A stretch of 21,320 nt of DNA from an uncultured Rubellimicrobium sp. (GTDB taxonomy: Bacteria > Pseudomonadota > Alphaproteobacteria > Rhodobacterales > Rhodobacteraceae), in NCBI GenBank assembly GCA_902805995.1, contig CADCUU010000487.1:1-21320 (forward strand), given 5' to 3'. Positions 2,000-19,453 of the stretch are shown here, piece after piece. Positions within the stretch are counted from its first letter, which is position 1; the number at the start of each line of letters is the position of its first letter. The notes under the pieces were generated by a model, which worked only from the letters and a program-made list of their open reading frames with translations, did no database searches and was not told where the DNA came from. The position numbers and the translations under genes were made by a program.

Positions 2000-2815
2000 C
2001 TACACCATCACGCGCAGCGTCTCTTCCAGAGCCGTTTCGCCGCCAGGCCTCCATCCCAGGGCACGCAGGCGCGAGCAGTCCATCATGTTCGGACGTTTCT
2101 GAACCTGCTCCGGCAGTGTTCCCTTGACCCCGGAGATCCGGGACCAGCGCTCCAGCAGCTCGCGCCGGTCGAGGAGAAGGTCCGAGCAGTTGTAGGGGCC
2201 CGAGGCCCCGCCAAGAAGCAGCGCCACCGCGCGGGCGAGGTCGTCGCCATGCACCTCGGTCCCGCAGGCGGGTGCGACCACTTCACCGCGTGCGAAGGCG
2301 TCAAAAAGGTCCGCCCATTTGTGGCGCTGGCCCGGCGCGGGGGGGCCGTAGACTCCGGTCGCGCGTAGGCTCGCGCCGCCGAAATCGTGCAGCGCCTCCT
2401 CGGCGCGGAGCTTCACCTGGCCGTAAAGTCTGTCGGGGGCGAGGGGCAGGTCTTCGGTGAGGGTCGTGCCTGGGGGCAGCCCGTCATAGACCGCGCGGGA
2501 GGACAGGAAGACGATCCGCAGGCCGCGCGCCTCCCTCCAGAGACGGAGCGTGCCGTCGAGGTTGGCGTGGAGAAAGCCTTCGGGGTCTTCGCCCTCCCCG
2601 CCTCGGTAGCGGCCGGGGACGTGGGAAAACGCGGCATGGACCAGCGCGTCGCACCCCTGAAGCAGCGCAGGTTCGCCCAGACGCCAGGGGCGGTGCTCGC
2701 CTCCGTGCGGCGACGGCGTGCGGCCGAGGGTCACCACCCGCCAGCCCATCCTGAGGAACCGGGCCACGATGAACTGGCCCACAAGGCCGGTTGCCCCCGT
2801 GACAGCGACCTTCAC
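2000..2815 (-). CDS. sqdC: SqdC-like NAD-dependent epimerase/reductase, sulfolipid biosynthesis
   Basis: 271-residue extended short-chain dehydrogenase. The Rossmann motif GATGLVG is at residues 7-13, the catalytic Ser region FLSSRAVYDG near 103-112, and the active-site pair YGQVK at Tyr131/Lys135. On its own it would be called a generic NAD-dependent epimerase/dehydratase. Its place as third gene after sqdB and a GT8 gene, on the same strand, reproduces the sqdBDC order of Rhodobacter sphaeroides, where loss of sqdC disturbs sulfolipid formation and leads to a sulfoquinovosyl-dihydroxyacetone by-product. The exact substrate is unknown. It is separated from sqdD by 114 nt, longer than usual within an operon, so a second promoter is possible. 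The symbol rests mainly on context. Confidence 0.8.
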   Translation of the reverse strand: MKVAVTGATGLVGQFIVARFLRMGWRVVTLGRTPSPHGGEHRPWRLGEPALLQGCDALVHAAFSHVPGRYRGGEGEDPEGFLHANLDGTLRLWREARGLRIVFLSSRAVYDGLPPGTTLTEDLPLAPDRLYGQVKLRAEEALHDFGGASLRATGVYGPPAPGQRHKWADLFDAFARGEVVAPACGTEVHGDDLARAVALLLGGASGPYNCSDLLLDRRELLERWSRISGVKGTLPEQVQKRPNMMDCSRLRALGWRPGGETALEETLRVMV

Positions 2816-2929
2816 GGCTTGAACCTTCGCTCTGATCGCGAGGCTGTCCCTCTCGGAACCATGATCCTCGCGCTCAGGCGCATATGGACCAGCGAACGTG
2901 AGAGATTGTGGCCGAGCGGCACGACACGG

Positions 2930-3727
2930 TCATGGCAAAGGCAGGGTCGACAGGTCCGGGACCGCCTCATCCCCCGCATAGGCCCGCCAGAGGTCGATCA
3001 GCGGGCGGAGGCGGTCGACCTTGGCGTGGTCCTGCCAGGGTTTCTCGTACTGGAAGTGGAGGACATGGATATCCGACCAGTCCCAGAGCCCGGGCAGGTT
3101 GAACCACACATACTGGAGCATGTTGTAGATCACCGGCAGCCCGTGCCAGTCGGGGAAGGCCTCCTGCAGGAAAGTCTGGTCGGTGCGCTTCCAGAAGGCG
3201 CCGGGCGTGTCGAGATGCGCGAAAAGGCGCTGGAACGTGGCCTCTGAGGGACGCGCCGTGAACACCCCCGAATTCATGCGGTGGAAGTCTGAAAGAGATT
3301 CGTAGACGTTCGGGGCCGCGCAAAACTCTGGATAGTCGAACAGCCGGTCGATGTTGCGCAGCGCCAGCGTGTCGGCGTCGAGGAACACGACCCGCTCGTA
3401 GGGCAACTGCCAGAGCCGCAGCTTGGCGAAGTTGTCGAGCGGCGTATGAAACGGAGGCTTCGTGCCCTTGGTGAAGGGATTGAGGCCGTGGATACGGTCC
3501 TTGGCGTGACGCTCGTTGAACTCCGGCGAGGTCGGCAGGAGATCCACCGGCACGAGGCGGGCCCCCCGGGCGGCGAGTGCGCGAAGGCTGTCCTCCGGCA
3601 CGCCGCCGGTGTGCATCACCACCCGGTCAGCCGTGGTCCCGGTGAGCGAAAGGGAGCGCAGGAGAGCCCCCGCGCCGACCGCGAAGTCGGCGTTGGTGAC
3701 GAGGGTGACATAGGCGCGGGTGGTCAT
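2930..3727 (-). CDS. sqdD: SqdD-like family 8 glycosyltransferase (sulfoquinovosyltransferase candidate)
   Basis: 265 residues with a glycogenin/GT8 fold. It shows an N-terminal YVTLVTNADF strand, the metal-binding DxD in VVFLDADTL (Asp117-Ala-Asp119), the MNSGVF motif in mid-protein, and HFQYEKPW near residues 214-221, matching the family's C-terminal His-Lys element. SqdD of Rhodobacter sphaeroides is a glycogenin-like protein proposed to transfer sulfoquinovose from UDP-sulfoquinovose to diacylglycerol, and the neighbour sqdB supports the same role here. This differs from cyanobacteria and plants, which use the unrelated SqdX/SQD2 (GT4). ATG 3727 is the first ATG after an in-frame TGA upstream. 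No good Shine-Dalgarno sequence is seen, and a small GC hairpin (3738-3750) sits just upstream. Confidence 0.88.
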   Translation of the reverse strand: MTTRAYVTLVTNADFAVGAGALLRSLSLTGTTADRVVMHTGGVPEDSLRALAARGARLVPVDLLPTSPEFNERHAKDRIHGLNPFTKGTKPPFHTPLDNFAKLRLWQLPYERVVFLDADTLALRNIDRLFDYPEFCAAPNVYESLSDFHRMNSGVFTARPSEATFQRLFAHLDTPGAFWKRTDQTFLQEAFPDWHGLPVIYNMLQYVWFNLPGLWDWSDIHVLHFQYEKPWQDHAKVDRLRPLIDLWRAYAGDEAVPDLSTLPLP

Positions 3728-3843
3728 GGTGCTGACAGGTGCCCCGCACCGTCATGCGAAGCATTGCACAGCCTCAGGCCGGGCGCGTCGATGCCATCTG
3801 CTAGCGCGCCCATGTCAGCCAAGACTCCACAGGACCAGCCCCA

Positions 3844-5061
3844 TCAGGAGGCCGGGCGCAGGGCCTGACGCTCCGGGTCGCGATCCACGCGCTCGGCGAT
3901 CTCCTTGGTCCAGGCAGACACGGCGGGCACGCGGGACCGGTCGATGCGGTGTGCGAACTTCTTCGCGACGTCCACCACCTCGCTCAGGAGCCCTTCCTCC
4001 AGCCGGATCGGGTTGAGGCCGAGCGCGAGGAACTGGTCGTTGCGCACGATCAGGTCGTTCTCCTCGGCCTCCTTGCGGGGGTTGGGGAGAAAGGCGACCT
4101 TGGCCCCCGACAGGCGCGCCACGAGTTGCGCGAGGTCGCGGACGCGGTGCGTTTCCGTCATCTGGTTGAAGATGCGCACCCGCTCGCCCGACTTCGGCGC
4201 GTCCGCGAGAGCGAGTTCGATGCAGCGGACCGAGTCCTGGATGTGGATAAAGGCGCGCGTCTGCCCGCCCGTGCCGTGGACCGTCAACGGATAGCCGATC
4301 GCCGCCTGGATGAGGAAGCGGTTGAGCACCGTGCCGTAGTCGCCGTCGTAGTCGAAGCGGTTCACGAGCTGCGGGTGGCGCCGGGTCTGGTCGGTGTGGG
4401 TGCCCCAGACGATGCCCTGGTGCAAGTCGGTTATCCGCAGTCCGTCGTTCTGGGCGTAGAACTGAAACAGGATCTGATCGAGGCTCTTGGTCATGTGATA
4501 GACCGAGCCGGGGCGCGTCGGGTACAGGATCTGCTGTTCGCGCGGGCCAGCGGGCGTGTCGATCGATACGTCGAGGTAGCCCTCGGGGATCGGCGCGCCG
4601 ACGCTGGAATAGCCGTAGACGCCCATCGTCCCGAGATGGATGAGGTGCGCGTCGATCCCGGTCTCCACCAGGGCGGCGAGGACGTGGTGCGTGGCGCCCA
4701 CGTTGTTGTCCACCGTGTAGACCTTGTGGCGGTCGGTCTTCATCGAATAGGGCGCGGCCCGCTGCTCGGCGAAGTGGATGACCGCATCGGGGCGATGCTC
4801 GGCGAACCACTGCTTCACACGCTCGTATTCGGTGGCGAGGTTGAGGAGGTGGAAGTGCAGCGTGCGCCCCGTGACCTCCTTCCAGATGCGGCAGCGCTCC
4901 TGGATCGAATCCATCGGGGTCAGCGACTGCACGCCAAGCTCGGTGTCGATCCAGCGGCGCGAAAGGTTGTCCACGATGTGGATGTCGTGGCCGAGGTTCG
5001 ACAGGTGAAGGCAGGTGGGCCAACCCACGAAGCCGTCCCCGCCGAGGATCGCGATCTTCAT
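3844..5061 (-). CDS. sqdB: UDP-sulfoquinovose synthase SqdB
   Basis: 405 residues, recognisable along their whole length as SqdB/SQD1, which makes UDP-sulfoquinovose from UDP-glucose and sulfite using bound NAD+. Visible elements in order: nucleotide motif GGDGFVG (7-13); VDNLSRRWIDTELGVQSLTP (30-49), typical of this subgroup; HFAEQRAAPYSM (96-107); LGTMGVYG with Thr145; YHMTK with Tyr188 and Lys192 as the catalytic pair; NRFDYDGDYGTVLNRF; and VPAVSAW near the C-terminus. These distinguish it from ordinary UDP-glucose 4-epimerases. It is first in the sqdB-sqdD-sqdC set and is preceded by a GGAG about 7 nt before the ATG. The product headgroup goes into the anionic membrane lipid sulfoquinovosyl diacylglycerol, which can replace phospholipids under phosphate limitation. 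No Pho-box was identified upstream. Confidence 0.95.
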   Translation of the reverse strand: MKIAILGGDGFVGWPTCLHLSNLGHDIHIVDNLSRRWIDTELGVQSLTPMDSIQERCRIWKEVTGRTLHFHLLNLATEYERVKQWFAEHRPDAVIHFAEQRAAPYSMKTDRHKVYTVDNNVGATHHVLAALVETGIDAHLIHLGTMGVYGYSSVGAPIPEGYLDVSIDTPAGPREQQILYPTRPGSVYHMTKSLDQILFQFYAQNDGLRITDLHQGIVWGTHTDQTRRHPQLVNRFDYDGDYGTVLNRFLIQAAIGYPLTVHGTGGQTRAFIHIQDSVRCIELALADAPKSGERVRIFNQMTETHRVRDLAQLVARLSGAKVAFLPNPRKEAEENDLIVRNDQFLALGLNPIRLEEGLLSEVVDVAKKFAHRIDRSRVPAVSAWTKEIAERVDRDPERQALRPAS

Positions 5062-6425: not shown

Positions 6426-7790
6426 TCAGCGGATGGGGGGATCTGCCCCGACCCCCATCATCACCGGATCGGGTCGCTGGCCTAGCGCCTGCTCGAACAG
6501 GTTCTCGGGCCCCATCTGGCCGCCCTTCAGGATGATCTCCACGGGGTCGCCCTCGGCCCGGTGCCCGCGCATGAGGGATGCGCCGTGAGCGATCCAGGCC
6601 AGAGGCTCCAGTGCCACGACGCCAAGTTCACGGGTCACGCGGCCCGAGGTGTCGCCCCCGCAGACGAGAACCCGACCCACGCCCCTGTCCACGAGCCCTG
6701 AGAGGACCATCCCCAGCGCCTCTCCGATTCGAGCCTCGCCCTCGGCGGGGGAAAGCCCTGCCCGGGCGATGGCGGCACGGGTTGTGGCGAGGGCCGGGTC
6801 GTCCGGGCCGCGCAGCGCGGCGACGATGGGGTTCCGCCCGTGAGCCAGCGCGGCGGCGGCGCTGTCCGTCGCGGCGCCGATGGCCGCCTGCGCGCCCGGC
6901 CCGAACAGGGCCACGGTGTCGAGGGGGATCACGGGCCAGCCACGAGCCTCCGCCCAGGCGACCTGCATGGCCGTGATGGCCGAGGCGGAGCCCGACACCA
7001 CGGCGATCCGGTCCACGGGCCAGGGCGCGGGACGCGTGGACTCCTCGGCCAGCCACCCCTGCGCCCGGAAATAGGCGACAAGCGCGGATTCCACGCCCTG
7101 GGAGCCTAGGGCGAAGCGCCGGGACCAGATGATCCGCCCCACGGCGGCGAGGTCGTCCTGCCCCGCGCAGTCGACGGCAATGCCGCGCGGGCCCTGTTGG
7201 GCCAGTCGCTCGAACCCATCCGGGCCCAGATCGGGCCGCATCAGCGGCGCAAGTGGCAGGTCCGTCTGGCGGCCGAGGTGGCGGCAGATGTCGGCCTCGT
7301 CCATGGGTGTCACAGGGTGGCGCGCCATGACGGGGTGCCGGTCGATGCGGTGGATGCCCCCGGGACCCCGCGCAAAGAGCGTGCCGAAGGCCTGGTACCG
7401 CCCCATCTCGGGCGAGGCGAAGAGGATGGGTGCGCAGGGTTCTCCGGTCGCGGTCAGGCCTAGTTCCAGCGCGCGGCCCAGCGATCCGACTTGCGGTGCG
7501 CTGTCCATGGTGGAGCAGGCCTTGTAGTGGACCAGCGGCGCGCCCGTAGCCTTGAGCGCGGCATAGAGCTCCGGCAAGTGGGCGTTCATCCAGTCGGGGC
7601 TTTCGGCCCGAGCGGTGGTGGCGAGGCCGATGCCGCGCAGGCCCGGGAATCGCAACAGCATCTCGGGCGTCGGCGGCTCGAGGAACATCGCGGCGGGCAG
7701 GCCTGCGAAGGCCAGGGTCTCGGCCACCGCGGCGCCGCCGGTGAAGTCGTCGCCGAGCCAGGCGACCAGCGGTCCCTCGGGCAAACTCAC
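6426..7790 (-). CDS. oiaK: DUF1537 (four-carbon acid sugar kinase) family, likely 3-oxo-isoapionate kinase
   Basis: 454 residues from a GTG start that overlaps the RLP stop (GTGA, 7787-7790). Family motifs in order: N-terminal WLGDDFTGGAAVAE (about 10-23), the substrate-domain motif YKACSTMDSAPQVGSLGRA (about 95-113), VVSGSASAITAMQVAWA starting the C-terminal domain, and the nucleotide-site motif LVCGGDTSGRVTRELG near residue 385. DUF1537 proteins phosphorylate four-carbon or branched sugar acids. In the non-oxidative part of D-apiose catabolism, OiaK makes 3-oxo-isoapionate 4-phosphate, the substrate of an RLP. Its position directly after the RLP and downstream of an apsD-like gene fits that role. 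Substrate is inferred from context. The same frame stays open far upstream, but that extension is antisense-like translation of the RLP region and not part of this protein. Confidence 0.82.
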   Translation of the reverse strand: MSLPEGPLVAWLGDDFTGGAAVAETLAFAGLPAAMFLEPPTPEMLLRFPGLRGIGLATTARAESPDWMNAHLPELYAALKATGAPLVHYKACSTMDSAPQVGSLGRALELGLTATGEPCAPILFASPEMGRYQAFGTLFARGPGGIHRIDRHPVMARHPVTPMDEADICRHLGRQTDLPLAPLMRPDLGPDGFERLAQQGPRGIAVDCAGQDDLAAVGRIIWSRRFALGSQGVESALVAYFRAQGWLAEESTRPAPWPVDRIAVVSGSASAITAMQVAWAEARGWPVIPLDTVALFGPGAQAAIGAATDSAAAALAHGRNPIVAALRGPDDPALATTRAAIARAGLSPAEGEARIGEALGMVLSGLVDRGVGRVLVCGGDTSGRVTRELGVVALEPLAWIAHGASLMRGHRAEGDPVEIILKGGQMGPENLFEQALGQRPDPVMMGVGADPPIR

Positions 7791-9028
7791 CGATAGGCCC
7801 CAAGGGCCGCCGCGAGGGCCGGGCTCCGCTGCGCTCGGTCCTCGACAGCCTCGCCCGCGCGGGCGGCGGCCCAGGCCTCGCGAAACGCCTCCACGCCTGC
7901 GCGGGGCCCCTGGGGATGCGCGAGGATGCCCCCTCCCGCCGCATGGATCAGGTCGTCGGTGCCGAGCGCCGCCCAGGTCGGCCCCGCCTGCCGGATCGTC
8001 TGGCCGGAGGAGAAGACGGGCATCGCCAGCATGGGCGTGTCGTCCCAGAGCGGCTGGAGCACCGACCGGGCGGAGGCGATGACGCTGTCGTCCTCCTCCG
8101 TGAACTTGTTCGCGATCCCATTGACATGCAGGTGGTCCGCCCCGGCGAGCCGCCACAGCTTGGACCAGGCGACGTAGGATATCCCGTGGTTCGGATGCCG
8201 ACCCAGCGCGCCCCAGCCGTTGCGATGCGCATGGATGGGAAGCTGCGCATGACGCCGAAGCGCAAGCATCCCCGTAAGCCCCACCGAATGCATCGAGGCC
8301 ATGACGGACGTCCCGCCTTCGGCCAGCACGAGGTCGTGGCGGCGGCGCATCTCGTCCACCTCGCCCGTCAGGTTGAAGGCGTACATCACCGTCTTGCCCG
8401 TCCGCTCGGCCTCCTCGCGGATCACGCGCATCACGGCCCGGACACGGTCGTCGAAGGGGCAATGCGGGCCGTCGGCCTGCAGCTCGTCGTCCTTGATGAA
8501 GTCGATCCCGGCTTGGGCAAGCACCCGCACCAGATCCGCCGTCTCCTCCGGCGTGAGGCCGACCGAGGGTTTCACGATGGTGCCGACGATGGGTCCCTGC
8601 GCCACGCCCGCGAGCCTGCGGGTGCCCTCGATCCCGAAGGCCGGGCCGGGATTCGCCTCACCGAACGCGCGCGGCAGCCGGATGTCGAGGAGCTTCAGCC
8701 CTGAGAAGGCCCGCAGCTCGAACAGGTTGCCTGCGACGGTCGCGAGAAGGTTCGGCAGCGACGCCCCAAGGTTCGACAGGGGCCAGGACAGCGTCGCCCG
8801 CGCCAGCACGGGCCGCCCCGGCGTCGCGCCGGGCAGCGACGGGCGCTCGGCCTCGCCCACGATCTCCAGCCGCTCCACCACGGCGCGGGCGAGGCGCACG
8901 CCTTCGTTGTCCTCGCCGGGGACGGAGACGAAGGTGCCCGAGGACTGCTCGCCCGCTATGACCTCGGCAGCGCGGGCCGGGTCCTCGGCGGTCTCGATCA
9001 GGTAGTCGGCCTCGATCCGGTCGGTCAT
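7787..9028 (-). CDS. RuBisCO-like protein acting on 3-oxo-isoapionate 4-phosphate (OiaX or OiaT type)
   Basis: 413 residues; the start ATG 9028 overlaps the apsD-like stop (ATGA). The RuBisCO large-subunit barrel is clear: TIVKPSVGL (Lys153, equivalent to RuBisCO Lys175), DFIKDDEL (Lys179, Asp181, Glu182, equivalent to the carbamylated Lys201, Asp203 and Glu204), HAHRNGW (His268, Arg269), DHLHVNG (His301), a loop-6-like NKFTEED (Lys308) and AAGGGILAHP phosphate loop (365-367). The metal site therefore looks intact, but there is no small-subunit gene and the protein is shorter than RuBisCO. RLPs beside DUF1537 kinases in apiose loci either decarboxylate 3-oxo-isoapionate 4-phosphate (OiaX) or convert it to 3-phosphoglycerate and glycolate (OiaT). 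No tetrose-phosphate isomerase genes are nearby, which leans toward OiaT, but motif inspection cannot settle it. Confidence 0.88.
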   Translation of the reverse strand: MTDRIEADYLIETAEDPARAAEVIAGEQSSGTFVSVPGEDNEGVRLARAVVERLEIVGEAERPSLPGATPGRPVLARATLSWPLSNLGASLPNLLATVAGNLFELRAFSGLKLLDIRLPRAFGEANPGPAFGIEGTRRLAGVAQGPIVGTIVKPSVGLTPEETADLVRVLAQAGIDFIKDDELQADGPHCPFDDRVRAVMRVIREEAERTGKTVMYAFNLTGEVDEMRRRHDLVLAEGGTSVMASMHSVGLTGMLALRRHAQLPIHAHRNGWGALGRHPNHGISYVAWSKLWRLAGADHLHVNGIANKFTEEDDSVIASARSVLQPLWDDTPMLAMPVFSSGQTIRQAGPTWAALGTDDLIHAAGGGILAHPQGPRAGVEAFREAWAAARAGEAVEDRAQRSPALAAALGAYR

Positions 9029-10062
9029 GGCTGCACGCGCCTCCCTTGCTCGGCCGAGTCGTAGGCCGCGAGGCACAAGGCCAGCGTCTTCAGGTTATCC
9101 GCGCCGGAGGGCTGGGGCGCGGCCTCGCCCCGCAGGACGCCCAGCACGTGACGTTCGAAGTTGCGCACCGAGTCCTGCACGACGTGCCAGGGCTTCTCGC
9201 CCCAGGCCGGGACCTCGGGCTCCACGTCCTCCTCGCGCCGGCCCTGGGCGTCATGAATCAGCAGGCGGTAGTCCTCGCGCAGCTCCAGCGTCCCCTCGTC
9301 GCCTTCCAGCACCGCGAGCGTCTGAGGGAAAGGCTCGGGCCGCAGGGTCGTGTGGAACGACGCATCCGTCATGCAAACGCCTCCGCCCGCGTGGCGCGTC
9401 AGGGCCGTGAAGGCGTCCTCCCCCGCCACGCGCGGGTTCCGCTTCTGCGTCTCGCAGGTCACGGCCACAGCATCGCCCAGGAAGAGCCGCGCGAGGTCGA
9501 AGAGGTGCACGCCGATATCCATGATCGCGAGCCTCGGAGCCGTCGCGAGGTAGGGCTGGCCGGCATAGACGTCCCAGCCGTGGCGAAAGGAGAACCGGCC
9601 AAAGCGCGGCGTGCCGATGCTGGGGAGCAGGTCCAGCATCCGCATGAAGGGCCGCTGCCAGCGGAAGTTCTCGTGAATCAGGAACGCCGCGCCCGATGCT
9701 TCGCAGGCCGCGACCATGGCGCGGGCGTCCTCCAGCGTATCGGCGATGGGCTTCTGGCAGATCACCAGCCCCACGCGCGGTGCGCAAAGCTCCACCAAGG
9801 CGCGGTGCGACGGGGGCGTGGTGGCGATGTCCACGAAGTCGGGGCGGATCGCGTCGAGCATTTCTGCCGGGTCGGTGAAGGCCTGTGCGCCGAACTCCTC
9901 CGCCATGGCCTGCGCCCGGCCTGCGTCGAGGTCGCAGACGCCCACGATCCGCGCGCCCTCCGGTGCCAGGTCGCGCCAGGCCTGCATATGGTTGCACGCA
10001 AAGAAGCCCGCGCCGATCAGCGCGCCCCGGAACTCCGCCCTGCCGTTTGCCTCAGCCACCAT
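9025..10062 (-). CDS. apsD: Gfo/Idh/MocA oxidoreductase, likely D-apiose dehydrogenase
   Basis: 345 residues from ATG 10062, chosen over an in-frame GTG one codon upstream because an AGGGGGA sequence sits a few bases before it. The N-terminal Rossmann domain carries GALIGAGFFACNHMQAW, and the family's EKP motif appears as CQKPIADTLEDA, a form typical of the branched-sugar group. HENFRWQRPF and DIGVHLFDLARLFLGD provide the catalytic His region. ApsD oxidises D-apiose to the lactone/apionate with NAD+. It is first gene of a tightly overlapped apsD-RLP-oiaK transcript, with a consensus TATAAT and an operator-like pair just upstream. The Gfo/Idh/MocA family is certain; apiose as substrate follows from the RLP, kinase and apnO neighbours. 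Another sugar with a related path remains possible. Confidence 0.8.
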   Translation of the reverse strand: MVAEANGRAEFRGALIGAGFFACNHMQAWRDLAPEGARIVGVCDLDAGRAQAMAEEFGAQAFTDPAEMLDAIRPDFVDIATTPPSHRALVELCAPRVGLVICQKPIADTLEDARAMVAACEASGAAFLIHENFRWQRPFMRMLDLLPSIGTPRFGRFSFRHGWDVYAGQPYLATAPRLAIMDIGVHLFDLARLFLGDAVAVTCETQKRNPRVAGEDAFTALTRHAGGGVCMTDASFHTTLRPEPFPQTLAVLEGDEGTLELREDYRLLIHDAQGRREEDVEPEVPAWGEKPWHVVQDSVRNFERHVLGVLRGEAAPQPSGADNLKTLALCLAAYDSAEQGRRVQP

Positions 10063-10082
10063 CACATCCCCCTGCTGCGCGG

Positions 10083-10124
10083 ATCATTATACCAGTTGAT
10101 GCGTGGCGCAACTGGTATGACGAG
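10083..10124. promoter_or_regulatory. Operator pair over the apsD promoter
   Basis: An inverted repeat CAACTGGTAT / ATACCAGTTG, 10-nt spacer, lies between the gntR stop and apsD start. Its plus-strand arm reads ACTGGTATGACGAG (10111-10124), shared with the sites between gntR and apnO. Its minus-strand arm, ACTGGTATAATGAT (10096-10083), contains a perfect TATAAT (10091-10086) placed to serve as the apsD -10 box. No good -35 is seen at 16-18 nt. GGTAT-type half sites are known for NanR-like FCD/GntR regulators, so the local GntR protein is the likely binder, acting as a repressor over the -10. Confidence 0.72.
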
Positions 10125-10129
10125 TTCCC

Positions 10130-10846
10130 TCAGCCCGACGCGTCCTGCCGGTAGAGCGCGTTGGCCCGCGTCAGGTGATCCTTCATGGCCTGCGCCGCCC
10201 GCTCCGGGTCCCGCGCCGCAATGGCCGCGAAGATGGCCTCGTGCTCCTCCAGCGTCAGCTGCTCCAGCCCCGAGCTGTGGACCGCGCCCTGGTGGAACCG
10301 CGCCATCCAGTCGAAGACCGCCCGCACCACCGCAGAGAGCACCACGTTCCCGCTGATCCCCGCCACGGCGGCGTGGAATTCCCCGTCCCGGCGCATGAAC
10401 TCCTGCGGGTCGGCGCGGGCGAGGAGCTGCCGGGCGAGGATGTCTCGAAGCTCCTCCAGATGAGTGTCGGTCCGCAGTTCGGCCGCAAGGCGCGCGGTCC
10501 CGGTTTCCACGACGATCCGCGCTTCGCGCAGCTGCCGCAGGATGTTGTCGTCATGTGTCAGCACATGCCGCATCGTGAGGGCCAACTGCTCGGCCAAGAG
10601 GTCGAGCCGGGGTGCCGCGAGGCGGGGCCGGTCCCCGTGCCGCACGATGATGAGGCCCAGGGAGGCCAGTTGCTGCATCGCCTCTCGAATCGCGGGCCGC
10701 CCCACGCCATAGAGCGCCATGAGTTCCCGCTCGGACGGAAGGGGGTCGCCGGGCCGCAGGTCGCCTTCGTTGATCTGGGCGAGCAGACGCTCGCGCACCT
10801 CGTCGGACAGCTTGCGGCGGCGGATCGGATCGGCGTCGAGGCTCAT
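10130..10846 (-). CDS. FCD-domain GntR family transcriptional regulator (NanR-like)
   Basis: 238 residues. The winged-helix domain spans about residues 10-75, with PGDPLPSERELMALYGVGRPAIREAMQQL as the recognition region; the linker leads to an all-helical FCD effector domain (about 90-230) that contains the DGEFHAAVAGISGN metal-ligand segment and a late EEHEAIFAAI/KDHL pair typical of FadR-group regulators. A GGGAGG precedes the ATG by 4 nt. The gene sits between the apsD and apnO transcripts and has matching CTGGTAT elements on both sides, so it most likely represses both, and itself, until a pathway sugar acid binds the FCD domain. The ligand is not known from sequence. Confidence 0.9.
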   Translation of the reverse strand: MSLDADPIRRRKLSDEVRERLLAQINEGDLRPGDPLPSERELMALYGVGRPAIREAMQQLASLGLIIVRHGDRPRLAAPRLDLLAEQLALTMRHVLTHDDNILRQLREARIVVETGTARLAAELRTDTHLEELRDILARQLLARADPQEFMRRDGEFHAAVAGISGNVVLSAVVRAVFDWMARFHQGAVHSSGLEQLTLEEHEAIFAAIAARDPERAAQAMKDHLTRANALYRQDASG

Positions 10847-10899
10847 GGGCCCTCCCTCTCTCCGTCAGGCTAGCGCAACGCGGCCGGGATGGCGACAGG

Positions 10900-10974
10900 C
10901 TCGTCATACCAGCGGGCAGGTTGGCCCTCCCCGGCATTGACCGAACGCAGTCGCGTCCGTACTGGTATGACGAG
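10900..10974. promoter_or_regulatory. Divergent operator pair between gntR and apnO
   Basis: CTCGTCATACCAGC at 10900-10913 is the inverse of the direct ACTGGTATGACGAG at 10961-10974, sharing 13 identical bases. The right copy overlaps a possible apnO -10 (TACTGG, 10960-10965) placed 17 nt after a TTGACC -35 (10937-10942); that -10 is a poor match. The left copy lies about 55-67 nt upstream of the gntR start. The layout fits autoregulation and control of apnO by the same GntR protein, possibly with looping across the 47-nt gap. Confidence 0.68.
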
Positions 10975-11007
10975 TGCGCCCGGGGGCGCGACGGGGGAGG
11001 ATCCGCG

Positions 11008-11844
11008 ATGACGACAACCGTGGCCGTGCTGGGCGCCGGCGGAAAGATGGGCTTCCGCGTCACGCGCAAGCTCCGCGATGCAGGCTACGACCTGCGCGCC
11101 GTGGAGATCGGAGAGGCCGGGCGCGAGCGGCTCCGCGAGGCGGGGATCGAGGCCGTGGACCGGGCGACGGCGCTGTCGGGCGCGCAGGTCATCGTGCTCG
11201 CGATCCCCGATTCGGCCATCGGCGCCGTCGCGCAGGAGATCGTCCCCCAGATGGACCCGGGCGCGATGCTCCTGATCCTCGACGCGGCGGCCCCCTATGC
11301 GGGCGCGCTGCCGCAGCGGGAGGACGTCACCTACTTCATCGGCCATCCCTGCCATCCGCCGCTTTACGCCCACGACATCAACGATCCGGACCAGCGCCGC
11401 GACGTGCATGGCGGGGTCGCGCCCCAGTCCATCGTCTGCGCCCTGATGCAGGGGCCAGAGGAACACTACGCCCTGGGCGCAGCGATCTGCGAGGCGATGT
11501 GGTCGCCCATCATCCGCACCCATCGCGTGACGCTGGAGCAGCTTGCGATCCTGGAGCCCGGCCTGTCCGAGATGATCGCCATGACCTTCATCGACGCCAT
11601 GTCTGACGCGCTCGACGAGTGCGTGGAGAAGTACGGCATCGCGCGCGAGGCGGCCTTCGACTTCCTGATCGGCCACATCAACGTCGAGGCCTCCATGTGG
11701 TTCGGCTTCTCGCCCAAGGTGCCGTCGGACGCCGCGCTCCGCGTGACGCGCTACGCCAGGGACATCGTCCTTGCGCCCAACTGGCGCGAGGCGCTGAGCC
11801 CCGCCAAGGTCAGGGACGCGTCGGAGCTGATCGCCCGGGGCTGA
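11008..11844 (+). CDS. apnO: Phosphogluconate-dehydrogenase-like oxidoisomerase, likely D-apionate oxidoisomerase
   Basis: 278 residues from ATG 11008, supported by GGGGGAGG seven bases upstream; the frame is open further back but that stretch holds the operator. The NAD-binding motif VLGAGGKMGFRV is at the N-terminus, VLAIPDSAIG marks the end of the Rossmann core, and GHPCHPPLYAHDIND is a likely substrate-loop signature. The helical C-terminal domain resembles the PGDH_C group. ApnO converts D-apionate with NAD+ to 3-oxo-isoapionate, the substrate for the kinase encoded in the opposite transcript. The gene is divergent from gntR and shares its operator. Assignment of substrate depends on the co-located RLP, kinase and ApsD-like genes. 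The downstream hairpin at 11853-11878 probably ends the transcript. Confidence 0.8.
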   Translation: MTTTVAVLGAGGKMGFRVTRKLRDAGYDLRAVEIGEAGRERLREAGIEAVDRATALSGAQVIVLAIPDSAIGAVAQEIVPQMDPGAMLLILDAAAPYAGALPQREDVTYFIGHPCHPPLYAHDINDPDQRRDVHGGVAPQSIVCALMQGPEEHYALGAAICEAMWSPIIRTHRVTLEQLAILEPGLSEMIAMTFIDAMSDALDECVEKYGIAREAAFDFLIGHINVEASMWFGFSPKVPSDAALRVTRYARDIVLAPNWREALSPAKVRDASELIARG

Positions 11845-18499: not shown

Positions 18500-19453
18500 T
18501 TAGTTCGCAAGCTGCTCGACAGGTTGGTCGGGTTGCACTGTCTGGGCCGCGGCGACGACGGGCTCTCCGGTCACGCGGCTGTCGATGCGCCAATCGGGAA
18601 AGCCGAATCCGTTGGGCCAGGGATAGACCTCCTGCTGGTTGAAGTAGACCACACCCACAAGGTTCGGCATGTCGGGCTGGGGCTGGCGGACGCTGTTCTC
18701 CCAATCGGCGACGTAGGCTGCGTCGCCGGTGTAGCCCAGCTCGGCCACCACGACCGGCTTGTTGAACTGCGCGGCCCTCGCATAGCGCTCCGTCAGGAGC
18801 TCCTCAAAGGAGAGCGCCCGGCCCAGCACCCCCTCCTCGTAGTCCTGGTAGCCGAAGATCGACAGGCCCACGAGGTCGACGTAGTCGTCGCCGGGATAGT
18901 ACCGCTCCATCCCTTCCAGGCCCAGGGGCGACCAGATCGCGTTGATCCGGGGCGCCTCCTCGCGGCAGATGCCGATCATGCGGCGATAGGCGGAAATGTA
19001 GTCTTCGGGCGTCCAGCCCGACCAGATGAACTGGCCGTCCTCGTAGTCCATCTCCTGGCCCCAGCGGACCGAGACGGGACTTTGGAGCGTCCCGATCACC
19101 TCGCAGACCGCGCGCATGTTCGCGTCGTACTGGCCGGAGGCGATGCCGTTGCGCAGGTAGTCGGGCGTGTTGCGTTCGTCGCGGGACCAGGTCCAGGGCT
19201 CGATGGTGATCATCAGCGCCCGATTGCGTTCGAGAGCATAGCTGTCGGCTGCGGCGAGGGAGTCGAGCGAGACGTCTTCCCAGGGGAGAAAGATGTGCTC
19301 GATGGTCACCTCGGCCGAGGGCTGCTCGTAGTATCCGCCGGGATCGTAGGAGCCGTAGGGCAGCGGGCCGGGCGGGGCCGCGAGCGCGGCGCAAGTCCCC
19401 ATCAGGAGCGTGAGCCCGGCGGCGGCAGGGATGCGGGATGTCCGGGTTCGCAT
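18500..19453 (-). CDS. Secreted GH26-like glycoside hydrolase
   Basis: 317 residues from ATG 19453, with GGAGAG eight bases upstream; the frame is open well beyond it but that part is antisense-like translation of the GT2 gene. A signal peptide covers about residues 1-26 (AGLTLLMGTCAALA core). The TIM-barrel shows ITIEPW (82-88), the probable acid/base in SVRWGQEMD (Glu134), WSGWTPEDYISAYRRM (144-159), and the probable nucleophile in VVVAELGYTG (Glu238), an arrangement like GH26 beta-mannanase/lichenase enzymes. The His that often precedes the acid/base in GH26 is Gln here. It follows a cellulose-synthase-like gene by 56 nt, so it probably trims or releases the exported beta-glycan, as BcsZ does for cellulose. 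Substrate is not known. Confidence 0.83.
   Translation of the reverse strand: MRTRTSRIPAAAGLTLLMGTCAALAAPPGPLPYGSYDPGGYYEQPSAEVTIEHIFLPWEDVSLDSLAAADSYALERNRALMITIEPWTWSRDERNTPDYLRNGIASGQYDANMRAVCEVIGTLQSPVSVRWGQEMDYEDGQFIWSGWTPEDYISAYRRMIGICREEAPRINAIWSPLGLEGMERYYPGDDYVDLVGLSIFGYQDYEEGVLGRALSFEELLTERYARAAQFNKPVVVAELGYTGDAAYVADWENSVRQPQPDMPNLVGVVYFNQQEVYPWPNGFGFPDWRIDSRVTGEPVVAAAQTVQPDQPVEQLAN

Follow-up and report, generated by a model that had tools for sequence, protein, structure and literature searches.

A putative D-apiose catabolic gene set built around a RuBisCO-like protein, probably of the OiaT branch, in an uncultured Rubellimicrobium

A predicted D-apiose gene set in Rubellimicrobium

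The window analyzed here (the whole 21,320-nucleotide stretch of contig CADCUU010000487.1 of an uncultured Rubellimicrobium sp.) carries five genes at positions 6426–11844 that probably constitute a D-apiose catabolic set belonging to the OiaT (3-oxo-isoapionate-4-phosphate transcarboxylase/hydrolase) branch of a known pathway, the substrates, reactions, repressor binding and inducer given below being predictions from homology and gene context. Since this kind of pathway is already known, the Rubellimicrobium set is, as judged from its genes, a further member of it, distinguished by an unlinked lactonase gene, the absence of an importer, a divergent ApnO-like protein and a recurring putative NanR-type operator. 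A literature search combining Rubellimicrobium with apiose found no paper.

The five open reading frames (ORFs) are all open and intact, and the Pfam matches of their products lie above the curated cut-offs (Table 1). The five-gene set put forward in the original prediction is therefore real, and the gene families and the apiose/apionate assignment proposed there are supported by homology and context. The regulator, dehydrogenase, RuBisCO-like protein (RLP) and kinase genes are transcribed in this order from the minus strand, and the ApnO-like gene is divergent, on the plus strand. The stop codon of the dehydrogenase overlaps the start of the RLP by four bases (ATGA, 9028–9025), and that of the RLP overlaps the start of the kinase likewise (GTGA, 7790–7787), so that the starts of the RLP and the kinase fall inside the longest ORFs; these overlaps resemble those of a coupled operon.

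Table 1. Features of the predicted D-apiose module (positions are those of the window)
Feature	Position	Strand	Evidence
DUF1537-type kinase, 3-oxo-isoapionate kinase (OiaK)-like; GTG start	6426..7790	-	Pfam SBD_N and NBD_C; NCBIfam OiaK NF042436
RLP, most likely OiaT	7787..9028	-	Pfam RuBisCO_large; tree; diagnostic positions; identities
Gfo/Idh/MocA dehydrogenase, D-apiose dehydrogenase (ApsD)-like; start GTG 10065 or ATG 10062	9025..10065	-	Pfam GFO_IDH_MocA; PDB; homologue names
Operator-like half-site, one mismatch; forms with the 10112..10124 site the inverted repeat ATACCAGTTG-N10-CAACTGGTAT	10083..10095	-	
Operator-like site CTGGTATGACGAG, between regulator and dehydrogenase	10112..10124	+	
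FCD/GntR regulator, NanR subfamily	10130..10846	-	Pfam GntR and FCD; NCBIfam NF003011
Operator-like site CTGGTATGACGAG, upstream of regulator	10900..10912	-	
Operator-like site CTGGTATGACGAG, upstream of ApnO-like gene	10962..10974	+	
ApnO-like oxidoreductase (D-apionate oxidoisomerase-like), divergent subtype	11008..11844	+	Pfam PGDH_C; PDB; identities

In the scheme proposed, the reactions of which are those reported for the D-apiose pathway described in 2018 by Carter and colleagues, the dehydrogenase would oxidize D-apiose to apionolactone, which would be converted into D-apionate either by a lactonase encoded elsewhere (on contig C23 of the same bin) or by spontaneous hydrolysis. The ApnO-like enzyme would then oxidize and rearrange D-apionate to 3-oxo-isoapionate, the kinase would phosphorylate the latter, and the RLP would convert the phosphorylated compound into 3-phosphoglycerate and glycolate, which would enter central metabolism. 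The NanR-subfamily repressor, bound to TGGTAT half-sites in both gaps, would silence the two divergent units, and the repression would be lifted by an inducer, which is presumably apiose or an acid of the pathway. The original prediction had the five genes leading from D-apiose to phosphorylated 3-oxo-isoapionate. This span needs correction at two points: no lactonase (ApnL) gene is present among the five, and the set would not end at that compound, since the RLP would act after it and consume it.

The RuBisCO-like protein and the kinase

The NCBIfam model best matched by the RLP is that of the decarboxylase OiaX (NF042437), with 409.6 bits, which is below the cut-off of 700; its score against the true-RuBisCO type III model TIGR03326 (249 bits) is also below the cut-off (497.45). 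When the genomes of the family were searched with the OiaX model, RLPs above the cut-off (755–781 bits) were found in three of the 149, and RLPs scoring 379–465 bits in 20, including that from which the window originates. A quick tree of 105 rows was built after the exclusion of six loci that duplicated genomes already represented and of ORFs that were broken or did not reach 80% of the query length. In this tree, the RLPs of the window, of contig C441 of the same bin, of R. arenae and of R. roseum form one cluster (support 100), which is joined by four further alphaproteobacterial rows (96) and is separate from the three OiaX rows. The OiaX branch is nested among the other rows and very long (2.99), and its joining point is unsafe in view of the long-branch warning given by the program.

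Seven RLPs which bear the JGI label 3-oxoisoapionate-4-phosphate transcarboxylase/hydrolase sit among the non-OiaX rows, where they form two groups. The window RLP shows 64.6, 64.8 and 70.5% identity to three of these proteins and 40.9–43.9% to the four OiaX-type rows, one of which (locus L110) was counted as such because of its place in the tree. At 35 diagnostic positions, the four OiaX-type rows have one residue in common, and a different one is shared by at least 95% of the 97 other rows, including the window: the window RLP has the non-OiaX residue at 34 of these positions and neither residue at one. The FIKDDE motif, which comprises the metal ligands and a lysine whose role is taken to be that in RuBisCO, is retained, as are 150 of the 156 near-invariant columns. 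The tree, the diagnostic positions and the identities suggest that the window RLP most likely belongs to the OiaT branch, and OiaT is thereby favored in the choice between OiaX and OiaT that had initially been left open.

A second RLP (L110/L129), found in a genome matching R. roseum (G152), clusters with the OiaX rows, and one Rubellimicrobium genome may therefore carry both branches. Among the names seen in the source records, RLPs of this kind are mostly called RuBisCO large chain.

The best NCBIfam model of the kinase is OiaK (NF042436), at 403.1 bits, again below a cut-off of 700, and 89 of the 93 near-invariant columns are kept. The match with the characterized pathways holds as far as the families are concerned and falls short of the OiaK and OiaX cut-offs. 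A replacement of the kinase was considered and rejected: it is on average 44.7% identical to those of the other loci, a value inside the spread of 1,481 pairs of similar RLP identity (mean 49.4, standard deviation 3.7).

Dehydrogenase, ApnO-like protein and lactonase

The top PDB match of the dehydrogenase is 5uhw (316 bits), which we take to be an apiose dehydrogenase of Agrobacterium, the runner-up scoring 78 bits. Among the 120 homologues listed, three bear the JGI name D-apiose dehydrogenase (60–61% identity), and most of those named are simply called "predicted dehydrogenase". The nearest PDB entries to the ApnO-like protein are 3c24 (404 bits) and 5t57 (255 bits). Its mean identity to the ApnO-like proteins of other loci is 44.8%, whereas pairs comparable in RLP identity average 57.0% (standard deviation 7.0), and it is 68% identical to its counterpart in the Hoeflea locus L011, where the same subtype adjoins ApnL-, ApsD- and OiaK-like genes, an RLP and an ABC importer.

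A search of the window's own genome with the ApnL model gave no match on the contig carrying the window. The source bin (3.03 Mb in 504 contigs, 85% complete, 5.1% contaminated) includes an ApnL relative on contig C23, matched in two stretches with 195–196 bits (cut-off 750). The model was matched in six of the eight genomes of the genus, in none of them above the cut-off. The C23 relative, the surroundings of which are like those in genome G150, is 71% identical to the protein of that genome and 37% identical to the protein beside the R. roseum cluster; in R. roseum, an ApnL-like gene is located beside the module copy.

Regulator and operator-like sites

With 260.6 bits, the regulator just exceeds the cut-off of 260 set for the NanR model NF003011. 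Five regulators from other loci score 257–340 bits with this model: those of L006, L009 and L025 pass, and those of L093 on contig C441 (256.7) and of R. arenae (L003, 259.7) are slightly short of it. Only four TGGTAT hexamers occur in the window, all inside the 225 bp making up the two gaps which flank the regulator. The fact that the regulator passes the NanR model and that its gene is flanked by TGGTAT half-sites suggests that a NanR-type repressor acting on NanR-type half-sites is the likely control of the module.

The pattern CTGGTATRAYSAG was composed after the sites of the window and of its sister copies had been seen. It is matched exactly at six places of the bin: three lie in the gaps of the window and two in those of C441, and the sixth is upstream of a second importer of the ABC type, also on C441. 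With at most one mismatch, 13 matches were obtained in the bin, five of them elsewhere, versus six with the reversed pattern. When two mismatches were allowed, the window showed five matches versus a mean of 1.0, a count reached in 2 of 100 shuffles. The second importer, a sugar ABC importer located at 3484–8069 of L093, has its exact match about 60 bases upstream of the binding-protein gene, and it probably belongs to the same regulon, judging by this site.

Outside the genus, the operator was studied at related loci, from which L003 and L004 were excluded as training loci. In the 250 bp upstream of the module genes of 47 GntR loci without Rubellimicrobium, TGGTAT is the top hexamer (62 occurrences versus 8.5 expected); it ranks first of 60 anagrams and is present in 39 of the 47 loci. 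After clustering to 25 loci, 35 occurrences remain versus 4.9 expected, and 22 of the 25 carry the hexamer. When a matrix built from 15 sites of the four Rubellimicrobium copies was applied to the 25 dereplicated loci, its best match preceded a module gene in 17 of them (1.55 expected), whereas eight column-shuffled matrices gave 0–4, and this result holds in genera other than Rubellimicrobium. NanR-type repressors sharing a ACTGGTATRATGAGT-like operator may be a common control of RLP-based apiose gene sets across Proteobacteria, a proposal which is likelier, and less far-reaching, than that of a substrate other than apionate discussed below. No paper on a TGGTAT operator of apiose gene sets was present among the literature matches listed.

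Related loci and sister copies

The best 80 of 547 confirmed RLP loci were compared, the gene content being counted within the fetched flanks. The kinase is present in 70 of them and an ApnO-like gene in 55, which indicates that the gene set is more than a chance association. All five genes occur together in 15 loci, and the RLP, kinase, ApnO-, dehydrogenase- and ApnL-like genes in 14. The layout consisting of apnO diverging from regulator-dehydrogenase-RLP-kinase is shown among the 15 complete loci only by those of R. arenae (L003) and R. roseum (L004), and also by the window and C441, in line with the suggestion that this divergent arrangement may be lineage-specific.

Two genomes related to the bin, G150 and G152, match R. 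arenae (L003) and R. roseum (L004), respectively, at 100% over 4,239 bases of this locus, which identifies the genus as Rubellimicrobium. The R. arenae, R. roseum and C441 copies share about 10.9 kb comprising a TIM-barrel gene, apnO, the regulator, dehydrogenase, RLP and kinase genes and an ABC importer. The window shares just the compact 5.4-kb core: the importer of the sister copies is absent from it, as is the TIM-barrel gene. The next genes in the window (encoding an HWE histidine kinase and a UDP-sulfoquinovose synthase-like protein) are those which follow the importer in R. arenae, so that the window copy occupies the R. arenae place, minus the importer and the TIM-barrel gene.

Apart from the RLPs of the window and of C441, the bin gave no RuBisCO-family match. 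The C441 copy is 88% (RLP) and 76% (kinase) identical to that of the window; it may belong to the same genome, as a paralogue, or derive from a contaminating relative. The G+C content is 67.2% in C441 and 70.1% in the window (64.6–72.3% in seven sampled contigs), and the tetranucleotide correlations are 0.914 and 0.920, respectively. The bin gave one full-length and two weak SqdB-like matches, and no match with rpoB.

Points against the assignment and alternative explanations

Several observations weigh against assigning the module to D-apiose and the OiaT branch. OiaT is anchored by a JGI label that rests on similarity, not by a characterized OiaT sequence, and the kinase and the RLP both lie far below the OiaK and OiaX cut-offs. 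The ApnO-like protein deviates at 11 of the 79 near-invariant ApnO columns; the ApnL relative is unlinked and below the cut-off, and contig C23 showed no operator match in the pattern search of the bin. The search for a glycolate oxidase gave two uninformative matches (230 and 60 bits, cut-off 568). The 31 loci without a detected GntR gene also show TGGTAT half-sites (13 versus 2.2 expected), and the motif is thus not strictly tied to a linked GntR. Lastly, the RLP and the kinase also occur in loci having neither an ApnO- nor an ApnL-like gene (21 of the 80, e.g., L021, L043 and L078), one or the other being present in the remaining 59, and this pair alone is no proof of apiose use.

The main alternative is that these genes act in the breakdown of a different branched sugar or sugar acid, such as D-hamamelose, to which ApnO and the RLP would have been adapted. 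A hamamelose RLP of Ochrobactrum is reported in passages of PMC10176493 and PMC8914248. In the window, the ApnO subtype is divergent and the RLP carries H248 and H282, where N and L are present in 91 and 92 of the 93 other rows, respectively; histidine occurs at position 248 in 36 and at position 282 in 29 of 118 close homologues, near relatives included. A short-chain dehydrogenase of a single cluster accompanies the RLP and kinase in 12 of the 21 loci without ApnO/ApnL, versus 2 of the 59 others: from their distribution, the RLP and kinase seem to be a pair shared by at least two pathways, and these 21 loci possibly represent a second branched-sugar pathway reusing them. The window's apiose assignment therefore rests also on the ApnO- and ApsD-like genes, which are both present, and its module has no such short-chain dehydrogenase. 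The same ApnO subtype moreover adjoins an ApnL-like gene in Hoeflea, and the R. roseum copy lies beside an ApnL-like gene. It seems rather unlikely that another sugar is the substrate. Similarly doubtful is a reading in which the Rubellimicrobium enzymes handle some branched sugar acid distinct from apionate, the ApnO subtype being retuned and the RLP marked by the two histidines.

It is still less likely that the window holds a silent or decaying second version of the more complete C441 copy, as the lack of the importer and TIM-barrel gene flanking the copies of C441, R. arenae and R. roseum might suggest, given that the five ORFs are open, that the near-invariant columns of the RLP and kinase and the operator half-sites are kept, and that the window copy would be the sole one if C441 came from a contaminating genome. 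Least probable is that the RLP is an OiaX-type decarboxylase yielding erythrulose phosphate and CO2: although OiaX is its best model and the OiaX rows are nested, on their long branch, among the others in the tree, this assignment was rejected in view of a score of 410 bits against a cut-off of 700 reached by three family members at 755–781, 41–44% identity and 34 of 35 diagnostic positions of the non-OiaX kind.

Neighboring genes

Beyond apnO, the TIM-barrel gene, which is xylose isomerase-like, is located at 18932–19768 in L093, 4357–5187 in L003, 4360–5196 in L004 and 3580–4374 in L011. The L093 product matches Pfam AP_endonuc_2, and those of L003 and L004 show 71–72% identity, versus 43% in the case of L011. 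On the minus strand of the window, positions 2000–5061 carry genes for an NAD-dependent epimerase, a family 8 glycosyltransferase and a UDP-sulfoquinovose synthase-like protein (324 bits, cut-off 575), a three-gene set resembling a sulfolipid sqdBDC operon.

Implications and comparison with known systems

The assignment of this module would add another genus to those with a pathway for this plant-wall sugar and indicates the branch to which its RuBisCO-like enzyme belongs. It also provides a candidate operator for apiose gene sets, which is open to testing and could serve to find importers and lactonases detached from their modules, a use already illustrated in the bin by the second ABC importer. 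Routine annotation would be misleading here in the case of both the RLP (RuBisCO large chain) and the regulator (NanR).

The D-apiose pathway with OiaT (Carter et al., 2018, Nat Chem Biol 14:696), dealt with in passages of PMC6302742, resembles the window in that apiose dehydrogenase-, ApnO-, OiaK- and RLP-type genes occur together, the RLP lying on the OiaT side. The window differs from it by its unlinked lactonase, absent importer, divergent ApnO subtype and divergently transcribed apnO. With the D-apiose pathway involving OiaX, the window shares the upstream gene families, but its RLP, 41–44% identical to the OiaX-type rows, is below the OiaX cut-off. According to passages of PMC11747546, one strain of the Rhodobacteraceae, in which a set of the decarboxylase type is annotated, grows on apiose as sole carbon source.

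The RLP of the D-hamamelose pathway of Ochrobactrum (Kim et al., 2018, as cited in passages of PMC10176493 and PMC8914248) is likewise an RLP acting in the breakdown of a branched sugar, the products named in the latter source being 3-phosphoglycerate and glycolate; this likeness is drawn from the description given in these passages. As regards the regulator, the NanR of Escherichia coli binds tandem direct repeats of TGGTATAW, according to passages of PMC4494728, and PMC8012715 is a further paper on NanR and its operator. No sialic acid genes were found among the window proteins scanned. The window regulator belongs to the same subfamily model and has the same half-site, TGGTAT; but whereas the NanR sites described in these passages are tandem direct repeats, those of the window are single or inverted and are located on apiose-type genes.

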